Source: Methanolobus sp.
Lineage (GTDB): Archaea; Halobacteriota; Methanosarcinia; Methanosarcinales; Methanosarcinaceae
DNA: 64,000 bases
Assembly (NCBI RefSeq): GCF_016278365.1
Contig: NZ_JADQBZ010000002.1
Coordinates: 1 to 64,000 of the forward strand
Direction: 5' to 3'
How positions within the stretch are numbered: the first letter of the stretch is position 1; each line of letters opens with the position of its first letter. The position numbers and the translations under genes are program-made. Below, piece after piece: positions 23,440 through 25,881 of this stretch. The notes under the pieces are model-generated. The model searched no databases. It saw nothing but the letters and a program-made list of their open reading frames with translations, and had not been told where the DNA came from.

Positions 23440-24453
23440 TCACCCCTGCAGGGACTGTGTACTTACGTGGAGAAGCTGTGGTTCACCCATCGCGGACACT
23501 TTTGCCCTTATAGGATCTCTGAGCCTTACAAGTCTCTTAGAAGGTCCGGGAATACTTCCCTTGATAAGGATATAATCTCCCCTCACAAGACCATAGTTTA
23601 TGAAACCGCCTGCGGGATTGATCTCTTCACCATTCGTTGAGACTTTAAGGATACGTTTGTTAAAATCTGTCCTCTGGTGATAACCCATCTGACCCATCTG
23701 TGGTACTCTCCAGTTAACGCGAGCCGGACGGAAGGGACCAAGAGTACCGATTTGCCTCAGGCTTCCCTGACGGGAATGCTTGCCTTTCATCATACCGATA
23801 CCCCATCTCTTCACAGGACCCTGTGTACCTTTACCGATGGTGATAGCTGCCACATCTATGAAGGTGCCGTTGTTAAAGACATCACTTATCTTTATCTCGC
23901 TGCCAAGTATTGACTTTGCGTATTCGAACCTTGCCCTGAGATCGGAGCCGCTTACTGCAGTTTCCATGATATCAGAGTTCTTCTTCGGAACACCGGTAAG
24001 GCTCTTTGGCAGAGTGTAAGTCACGACTTTAATATCAGAAACAGTGCCGTTTTCAATCAGGCTGCCAATCTTCTCGAGAGATGCATCAGTGTTAGAGGTC
24101 TTCGGTAAGTGCATAGTCTTGCCAAGGCTTGGGTCAAGGTCTGAACTCCATGCCTCTGCAACAGCTTTGCCACCGTAGCTATCACTGGCGTAAGCACGTA
24201 TTGCAGCAACACGAACTGCAGGTGTTTCCACAACTGTGACAGGCACGGAGATTTCCATACCTTCAGTGAGGCTGTTCTTCACATCGTCCACCAATATCAC
24301 ATGGGTCATACCCACTTTATAGCCTGCGAAGTCCTGAAGCTTTGGCTCCCCTGCAGACTCCGGCCATGAATTGAACCTCGGTATGTGGCCTTTTGCTCTT
24401 TTGCGAGGACTGTAAGCGAGTGAACCTCGTCTTGGTCTGTGTCCTTTTGCCAT
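23440..24453 (-). CDS. rpl3: Large ribosomal subunit protein uL3
   Basis: 337 residues, first gene of the long ribosomal transcript. N-terminus [20 protein letters not shown] and the core motif [20 protein letters not shown] (about 212-231) are diagnostic. A GGAG ribosome binding site precedes the ATG. Upstream is a roughly 210-base leader that folds into a compact RNA (24531-24670). The SPOUT-like methyltransferase gene that sits ahead of rpl3 in some archaea is not present. Confidence 0.97.
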
Positions 24454-24518
24454 TCTTATTCTCCTAGTTACACATTTTATACTAAATCAGGCAACACATT
24501 ACTGTATAGCCAGAATGC

Positions 24519-24524
24519 AAAAAA
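24519..24524 (-). terminator. U6 tract after the rpl3 leader RNA
   Basis: On the minus strand six T follow the 3' strand of the leader RNA's closing stem after about seven bases (GATGGC then TTTTTT). Together with the stem it resembles an intrinsic or factor-independent archaeal terminator or attenuator placed about 65 bases ahead of the rpl3 ATG. Confidence 0.4.
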
Positions 24525-24530
24525 GCCATC

Positions 24531-24670
24531 AAGTTCGCCAGAATCCACCGCTTACGGGGAGTCTGACCACTGTAAGAACTCCACGTACCTTAGATACGCA
24601 TCCTTATAGTGGACTGCTGCCTTCCATTGTCTACTGAAAGACCTTAGCATACCCTTAAAGGGCAAACTCC
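24531..24670 (-). ncRNA. Structured 140-nt leader or small RNA upstream of rpl3
   Basis: Read on the minus strand, the predicted transcript start region GGAGUUUGCC pairs with GGCGAACUU at the other end (9 bp with G-U pairs), closing a multibranched fold. Inside are three arms. First, a stem closed by UGCU/AGCA containing GUCU/AGAC. Second, a long interrupted hairpin: CCACU/AGUGG, AAGGA/UUCUU and GCGUAUC/GGUACGU with loop UAA. Third, an arm with ACUCC/GGAUU and CCG-UAAG-CGG. A TATA box lies about 20 bases before its 5' end and a U6 tract follows. It does not match tRNA, 5S, RNase P or SRP RNA as I know them. It could be an autoregulatory rpl3 leader or a processed small RNA. Pairing was found by eye. 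Confidence 0.5.
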
Positions 24671-24685
24671 GGATCATCTCGAAAA

Positions 24686-24693
24686 GATTTAAA
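24686..24693 (-). promoter_or_regulatory. TATA box of the rpl3 ribosomal operon
   Basis: The minus strand reads TTTAAATC, a strong archaeal TATA element. About 20-26 bases downstream lies the 5' GGAG that begins the foldable leader, at the expected transcription start distance. It is the only good TATA element far enough ahead of rpl3 to leave an untranslated leader. Confidence 0.65.
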
Positions 24694-24848
24694 CACATCT
24701 GCACTTTGGCGCACTATATTGCGCGCGACGGGCATTCTTGAAGAGGCCCTGATACTTCATGTTAAATCCGACTTTTTCGCACTGTAATCTTAATCTTGTC
24801 AGATACTCTTCACTGTAATCTAACGTTGGGCCATTAAACGTATATTAA

Positions 24849-24858
24849 GTATTTAAAT
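24849..24858 (+). promoter_or_regulatory. Possible galU promoter
   Basis: TATTTAAATT on the plus strand in an AT-rich stretch, about 160 bases ahead of galU. A second weaker candidate (CATATAAAAT, 24982-24991) is closer and would give an almost leaderless message. The sequence cannot decide between them. Confidence 0.35.
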
Positions 24859-25017
24859 TCTTTGCATAGCACAGCATGGACTTTTCAAGACAAGTCAGAA
24901 AAGATTTCTCATTCCATAGTACAAAATATCAAGAAAAGTAATATGTAATAATTATAAGTAGACATATTGTAATACAGTCCAGCCATATAAAATGAACTAA
25001 TAATTAAAAGTGGACAT

Positions 25018-25881
25018 ATGGAAGTTAAAAAAGCCGTCATACCGGTAGCGGGACTTGGAACAAGATTTCTTCCCGTTACAAAATCCATGCCAAAAGAAAT
25101 GCTCCCTATAATTGACAAACCAGTCATACATTATGTAGTAGAGGAAGCGATTGCGTCGGGAATTGATGACATCATATTCATAACAGGCAGAAGTAAAAGA
25201 TCTATTGAAGACTATTTTGATGATTCACCTGAACTTGAGCATCATCTCAAACAAAAGAACCAGCAAAATATGTTGAAGATCGTCCAGGATATTTCTTCCA
25301 TGGTAGACTTTCACTATATCCGGCAGAAAGAACCAAAAGGTCTTGGTGATGCAATACTCACCGCCCGAAAACACATAAATGACGAGCCGTTCGCGGTACT
25401 GCTGGGCGATGACATAATAGTTAACAAGACACCATGCACCAAACAATTGATAGATAATTTCTACAAATACGGGCGTTCAACATTGGCAGTTGAAGAAGTG
25501 CCCCTGGAAAAAACCGGCAACTACGGAATAATAAAAGGCACTCCGCTGGACGATTCACTTTACATCCTTGAAGACATCGTAGAGAAACCCAGACCGGAGG
25601 ATGCACCCTCAAATATCGGAGCCATTGGCAGATACGTTTTCACACCCGAGATACTTGATTGCATAAAAGAGACCGTAACAGGTGTCGGCAATGAGATACA
25701 GCTTACTGACGGGATACGCCTTCTGAACAATACACAGAAGATATATGCCTACAAGTTCACAGGGAAAAGATACGATACCGGAGACAAGACCGAATACGTA
25801 AAAGCAATTATAGACTTTGCTCTGAACAACGAAGATATGAAAGAGCAGATAAAAGAGCATCTTGCAGGCATACACATTTAA
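25018..25881 (+). CDS. galU: UTP--glucose-1-phosphate uridylyltransferase
   Basis: 287 residues. It makes UDP-glucose from UTP and glucose-1-phosphate for surface glycan and lipid synthesis. The nucleotidyltransferase signature AGLGTRFLPVTKSMPKEMLP lies at about 11-30. The metal/substrate segment is AVLLGDDIIVN, and the conserved EKPRPEDAPSNIGAIGRYVF is at about 188-207. Length matches GalU. It stands alone, convergent with iorBA with only 40 bases between them. Confidence 0.94.
   Translation: MEVKKAVIPVAGLGTRFLPVTKSMPKEMLPIIDKPVIHYVVEEAIASGIDDIIFITGRSKRSIEDYFDDSPELEHHLKQKNQQNMLKIVQDISSMVDFHYIRQKEPKGLGDAILTARKHINDEPFAVLLGDDIIVNKTPCTKQLIDNFYKYGRSTLAVEEVPLEKTGNYGIIKGTPLDDSLYILEDIVEKPRPEDAPSNIGAIGRYVFTPEILDCIKETVTGVGNEIQLTDGIRLLNNTQKIYAYKFTGKRYDTGDKTEYVKAIIDFALNNEDMKEQIKEHLAGIHI

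Follow-up and report, generated by a model that had tools for sequence, protein, structure and literature searches.

The window, a stretch of 64,000 nucleotides from a Methanolobus genome (its nearest named relatives, by comparison of rpl3 loci, are also Methanolobus), leaves a gap of about 565 nt on the minus strand between a divergent nucleotidyltransferase gene (25018-25881) and rpl3, the first gene of a ribosomal protein operon. A sequence-only reading had placed in this gap a compact 140-base RNA with its own promoter and a terminal U-tract, which would serve as an attenuator or else be a stable small RNA. The locus raises the question of whether the gap encodes a conserved RNA structure, where that structure lies, and what it does for the operon. 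We find that the structured RNA ahead of rpl3 in Methanolobus (Methanosarcinaceae) is real and that its conserved core occupies 24674-24782.

The leader RNA and its conserved core

Across the 59 rpl3 loci used to measure conservation at this locus, the peak falls at 24674-24782, upstream of the segment chosen by the sequence-only reading and running across its proposed TATA box. In Table 1, we report the features of the leader. The core consists of helix P2, which opens into the junction stem P3 and the hairpins P4 and P5, with GUCGG before it and UCUUUU after it. P3 takes different versions in different lineages, such as GUUGU/ACAAC, AUGUU/AACAU and GGCGC/GCGCC. The outer stem of P4 is paired in 100% of the sequences, as GGGC/GCCC, GGGU/GCCC or GGGU/ACCC, and its inner stem occurs in more than 10 different complementary versions. 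An initial RNAalifold run on a mixed alignment of the core recovered two stems only, P2 and P3 being smeared out by shifts of register, a problem that was solved with covariance models and an anchored alignment.

Table 1. Features of the rpl3 leader and operon start in the window, with the evidence for each.
Feature	Position	Strand	Evidence or remarks
rpl3 (uL3), operon gene 1; then rpl4, rpl23, rpl2	23440..24453	-	Pfam PF00297, PF00573, PF00276, PF03947
Shine-Dalgarno AGGAG of rpl3	24461..24465	-	sequence
P7 hairpin, in the interval from P1 to the Shine-Dalgarno	24490..24511	-	Methanolobus sequences, read by eye
P1, 3' strand GGCUUUUUUGCAU, includes the U6 tract	24515..24527	-	RNAalifold and duplex analysis
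Methanolobus-specific insert (the fold of the sequence-only reading)	24531..24672	-	z -3.2 versus shuffles
Hairpin GCGUAUCUAAGGUACGUGGAG, like 23S rRNA helix 35	24579..24599	-	same position in nearly all Methanolobus
3' flank UCUUUUCGAGAUGA, translating as IFSR* in the old frame	24674..24687	-	conserved from CDS members to leaders
P2, 3' strand UGUGUUUAAAUC, includes the TATA-like sequence	24686..24697	-	covarying pairs
P3, 3' strand GUGC	24701..24704	-	pairs with 24752-24755
P5 variable hairpin GCGCGC/GUGCGC	24709..24726	-	two-sided changes at all nine modelled pairs in alignment A5
P4 hairpin GGGC(CUC)UUC-AA-GAA(U)GCCC	24730..24749	-	outer and inner stems compensated
P3, 5' strand GUAU, three-way-junction stem	24752..24755	-	varies together with its partner
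P2, 5' strand GAUUUAACAU	24759..24768	-	CG/UA, GC/AU and AU/GC exchanges
Near-invariant GUCGG, before and opening P2	24768..24772	-	kept from Methanolobus to haloarchaea
P1, 5' strand GUGCGAAAAAGUC, long-range closing helix	24770..24782	-	RNAalifold, 17 Methanolobus sequences
Promoter: BRE TGCAAAG (24866-24860) and TATA TTTAAATA (24857-24850)	24850..24866	-	conserved

Covariation across relatives, to which the sequence-only reading had looked for support, is present in the pairs proposed here. We measured it in a structure-agnostic alignment of 103 sequences anchored on flanking motifs rather than on pairing, against a null in which the inferred substitutions are re-dealt along the tree (our own implementation, not R-scape). 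Pairs of P2 and P4 rank 1, 2, 4, 5 and 10 among 3741 column pairs, ranks 1, 2 and 5 belonging to P2. Five pairs have E below 0.05 in the test restricted to the proposed set, which is the informative one; the unrestricted scan of all column pairs returns a single top pair, with E about 0.09. In the joint model alignment (A5), the covariation score is 0.375, and slid versions reach no more than 0.131. Support is stronger for P2 and P4 than for P1 and P3.

Outside the core, P1 appears in the Methanosarcinaceae as an addition, a long-range helix that would pair 24782-24770 with 24527-24515. Duplex analysis finds equivalents with different sequences in other genera; taken singly, these duplexes beat shuffles only moderately, and P1 is therefore less certain than the core. 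Closer to rpl3, the P7 hairpin looks covarying within Methanolobus, with variants GACCAUGC/GUGUGGUC, GGCCUAUGC/GCAUAGACC and many more.

Copies inside the PF02598 gene and the relation to RF03135

A covariance model built from Methanosarcinaceae sequences only (R1) detects a single copy per genome, in almost all Methanosarcinaceae and also in Methanoperedenaceae. In two 2.4-Mb genomes of another family (f2; G048 and G044), its sole match lies inside a PF02598 gene directly upstream of rpl3, which ends some 30-60 nt before rpl3. In their predicted minimum free energy folds, the f2 coding sequences show this P2-P4 core too, and both sides of a helix have changed between them and Methanolobus (GAUCUGACA/UGUCAGAAUC versus GAUUUAACA/UGUUUAAAUC). 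The 3' strand of P2 is coding sequence (V-x-V-R-I) within PF02598 in f2, haloarchaea and Methanothrix, and the 3' flank UCUUUUCGAGAUGA has AUCUUUUCGCGACGA as its counterpart in the coding members. A second covariance model (R2) finds a copy in 231 of the 393 Halobacteriota genomes, single in all but one of them, and every copy inspected lies upstream of rpl3. It is inside the PF02598 gene that directly precedes rpl3 in Methanothrix, in haloarchaea and in many families besides.

These coding copies are matched above the Rfam gathering threshold (f2, haloarchaeal, Methanothrix and others) by RF03135, the L4-Archaeoglobi r-leader of Eckert & Weinberg 2020, found in 222/393 genomes. In that paper, the motif is rated borderline, its ligand L4 is a prediction only, and the main text makes no mention of the motif overlapping a gene (PMC7247131). 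Rfam 15 added three covarying pairs to it (PMC11701678). RF03135 has no match in window positions 23500-25800 at E up to 5, and even at E 5 it misses every Methanosarcinaceae and Methanoperedenaceae copy tested. A cmscan of the region likewise finds no known Rfam family at threshold. RNase P RNA was considered and set aside as an identity, the true one being elsewhere in the genome (G000:C6).

The link is made by intermediates: R2 unites the RF03135 copies embedded in coding sequence with the window element. On this sequence comparison, the window element is a divergent homologue of RF03135 by descent and not a member by Rfam's rule, because it falls below the RF03135 threshold and is linked only through intermediates. 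Like RF03135, it is placed upstream of rplC-rplD-rplW-rplB and has the P2-P3-P4-P5 topology in the same order (in RF03135, a closing stem CUGA..UCAG, a junction stem GCGC..GCGC, a GGGY..RCCC hairpin with an inner stem, and a variable hairpin); the pairs of this topology covary across the joint alignment. Unlike RF03135, the Methanosarcinaceae and Methanoperedenaceae copies add the long-range P1 and lineage-specific inserts, and unlike the copies embedded in coding sequence they are in a plain 5' leader and not inside a gene. The element has a covarying structure upstream of ribosomal protein genes, the mark of an r-leader; the archaeal S15 and eL15 leaders (PMC7247131) are also ribosomal protein leaders found by covariation, in other operons and with other structures. 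What had been a borderline, lineage-restricted r-leader prediction becomes a phylum-wide element with strong covariation.

Possible roles in the operon

The RNA structure is conserved, it keeps a fixed position ahead of rpl3, and it is independent of the protein gene. We think it fairly likely that the element is an RF03135 homologue in the rpl3-rpl4-rpl23-rpl2 leader that was born inside the PF02598 coding sequence, outlived that gene, and serves feedback by a ribosomal protein. Operon autoregulation of this kind is the likeliest role; for its ligand and mechanism, we infer that the core would be co-transcribed with rpl3 and that, when ribosomal proteins are in excess, operon-encoded uL3, uL4 or uL22 would bind the RNA and thereby lower expression of the operon downstream. 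Inside the PF02598 gene the RNA can sit 350-460 nt ahead of rpl3, so direct masking of the rpl3 ribosome-binding site is implausible; the RNA would more likely act on the elongation of transcription, on processing of the mRNA, or on translation by way of coupling with the gene upstream.

In E. coli, the leader of the S10 operon is bound by L4. Our element is like it in being the leader of the equivalent operon and in the presumed feedback by an operon product; unlike our element in its coding copies, the E. coli leader is not within another gene, and we found no sequence or structural relationship between the two.

A distance too great for simple start-site masking would also suit an element for processing, stability or transcription elongation of the long operon that answers to a signal other than a ribosomal protein. 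We regard this as possible and rather doubtful, since structured RNAs at the same operon position have been interpreted as leaders responsive to ribosomal proteins (PMC7247131) and positive evidence for another signal was found nowhere in our analysis. Both states of the RNA are represented in genetically tractable organisms, within the gene in Haloferax volcanii and without it in Methanosarcina acetivorans, so that the way this operon, the largest ribosomal one in archaea, is controlled can be tested directly.

The fold described by the sequence-only reading belongs to a Methanolobus-specific insert between the core and the 3' strand of P1. Its stability holds up: the minus strand of 24515-24672 folds at -55.4 kcal/mol versus -43.8 +/- 3.6 kcal/mol (z -3.2), better than all 200 dinucleotide shuffles. 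The ends pair as described, and the long hairpin, put at about 20 pairs, has about 18. As the conserved RNA it does not qualify, for the insert is restricted to Methanolobus and its sequence has no counterpart in the other genera compared. Unrelated inserts occupy the same place in Methanosarcina, ANME-3-like genomes, Methanomethylovorans and others. The Methanosarcina leaders (L052, L056, L062) are about 500 nt long and carry a long conserved insert (CUGCUCGAGGC..CCAGGCAGGUCUG, CCUGGUAGCGUUCGGGGAAUCCAG, GACCGGAGGGGCUGGU) unrelated to that of Methanolobus.

One hairpin of the Methanolobus insert resembles 23S rRNA helix 35, in which its counterpart is GCGUGGCGAAAGCUACGUGGAG and a flanking GAA also matches; this likeness may point to uL22 or uL4 as a candidate ligand in Methanolobus. 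That the Methanolobus leader acts mainly through uL22 or uL4 by mimicking helix 35 is nonetheless unlikely: the hairpin GCGUA..UACGUGGAG with its preceding (GUU)GAA is conserved and matches GUUGAAGCGUGGCGAAAGCUACGUGGAGGACC of helix 35, and the bipartite pattern has few matches per genome besides the leaders and the 23S genes, but the hairpin is limited to one genus and the comparison was made post hoc. General sequence comparison of the leaders with 23S rRNA gives nothing above shuffles. Between the core and rRNA sites we find no convincing mimicry; the top model hit, the 23S segment GGUCGGUUACUAUCUACUAGAGGUG, has E 1.6 and is regarded as chance.

The position of the promoter bears on the extent of the leader. 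A BRE/TATA motif, TGCAAAG-nn-TTTATATA, stands 67-112 nt ahead of the core in most of the Methanosarcinaceae and Methanoperedenaceae genera checked, and about 190-207 nt before it in Methanosarcina. Because the BRE/TATA of the window at 24866-24850 has counterparts in most related genera checked, the transcript would start near 24830, most likely within 24825-24833 by the usual archaeal TATA spacing, which would most likely make the leader about 375 nt long. In Methanolobus psychrophilus, a dRNA-seq study reports one mapped start for a 23-gene ribosomal protein operon and long 5' UTRs on ribosomal protein mRNAs (PMC5378194).

The elements that the sequence-only reading named are all present where it put them, and what changes is their meaning. 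One part of its reading is supported, namely a structured and conserved leader RNA with a probable role in regulating the rpl3 operon; the framing by promoter, start and U-tract is not. What was taken for a strong TATA box, TTTAAATC at 24693-24686, belongs to the 3' strand of the conserved, covarying P2, a site that is coding in relatives, and so fails as the RNA's own promoter; the conserved BRE/TATA is upstream of it. A transcription start placed where the fold begins misses the true conserved element, which begins about 110 nt further upstream. The U6 tract, taken for a terminator, pairs with upstream GCGAAAAAGUC (24780-24770) as part of P1, and the U-run is not conserved, reading GACUUUCUCGCGU in half of Methanolobus. 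A stable small RNA is thus left with a promoter inside the conserved RNA and an end in a non-conserved part of a helix. A segment that folds better than shuffles, together with TATA-like and U6 sequences that do exist, is what speaks for a self-contained 140-nt RNA; with its fold confined to Methanolobus and the conserved promoter elsewhere, we consider that model very improbable.

Selection on the RNA and loss of the gene

The PF02598 gene encodes a SPOUT RNA methyltransferase, and the RNA would have arisen within its coding sequence, just upstream of rpl3, in the Halobacteriota ancestor. The gene probably predates the RNA, because Sulfolobus acidocaldarius, used as a control, has PF02598 and no RF03135. 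Where the gene is intact, its synonymous sites carry a further constraint. At fourfold sites of conserved codons in haloarchaea, third-base diversity is 0.21 in the core versus 0.43 in the rest of the coding sequence (p 6.5e-4). Diversity in the core is also lower in other families (p 0.004); in f2 alone the constraint is merely suggestive (p 0.06).

PF02598 occurs in 186/393 genomes. A Pfam profile search finds it nowhere in the genome of the window, where stop codons interrupt the old reading frame at the site and the coding gene is not intact, nor in any Methanosarcinaceae or Methanoperedenaceae genome tested. Comparison of the two lists gives 44 RF03135-positive genomes without PF02598, in families f8, f16 and f19 and parts of f25 and f27; R2 adds 64 gene-less Methanosarcinaceae and Methanoperedenaceae genomes with the RNA, and nearly all f1 and f5 genomes tested lack the gene and have the RNA. 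The converse, PF02598 with no RNA match, is seen in about eight genomes. Gene-less copies inspected outside Methanosarcinaceae and Methanoperedenaceae lie about 225-280 nt before rpl3 with no long frame, and in Methanomicrobium mobile, another gene-less case, about 430 nt separate the copy from rpl3. The gene has decayed in Methanosarcinaceae, Methanoperedenaceae and several other families, and the RNA alone has remained. Counted by family and genus labels, and assuming no regain, there were at least three losses, since f25, f27 and Methanosarcinales each contain both genera that have the gene and genera that lack it.

Covariation, synonymous constraint and the persistence of the RNA after gene loss all agree, at the level of sequence, in pointing to selection on the RNA. 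The core does derive from the gene and retains traces of its reading frame, yet a slowly decaying methyltransferase remnant with no RNA function, similar only through old coding constraint, is hardly credible when the core is recognisable throughout a family in which rpl3 identity has fallen to about 70%, compensatory changes dominate in it, intact genes show extra synonymous constraint at the core, and the same segment survives in each lineage without the gene.

We hold it likely, instead, that the RNA evolved inside the methyltransferase coding sequence next to rpl3 and outranked the protein in selection, and that the gene was afterwards lost on at least three separate occasions, leaving the RNA in place as a plain 5' leader, a coding stretch repeatedly turned purely regulatory. 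If so, a regulatory RNA can reside within a protein gene, constrain it and survive its loss. Annotation conceals such an RNA twice: in methanogens the region is labelled "intergenic", and in haloarchaea it passes for "just coding".

Five f3 loci (L158, L159, L170, L171, L172) have PF02598 but no rpl3 start was found near it, and in them the conserved VGSD..IFSR codons and the core are missing, which is what an RNA in the service of rpl3 would predict. Traces of the former frame can still be read as KVGFN..IFSR* in the window and as VGSDRDVQVDVF..VNVRVF at another locus (L255). In one haloarchaeal PF02598 gene (L232), the protein sequence NCGLQHP has become NSPLREHP and P4 is still paired; here, RNA structure seems to override protein sequence.
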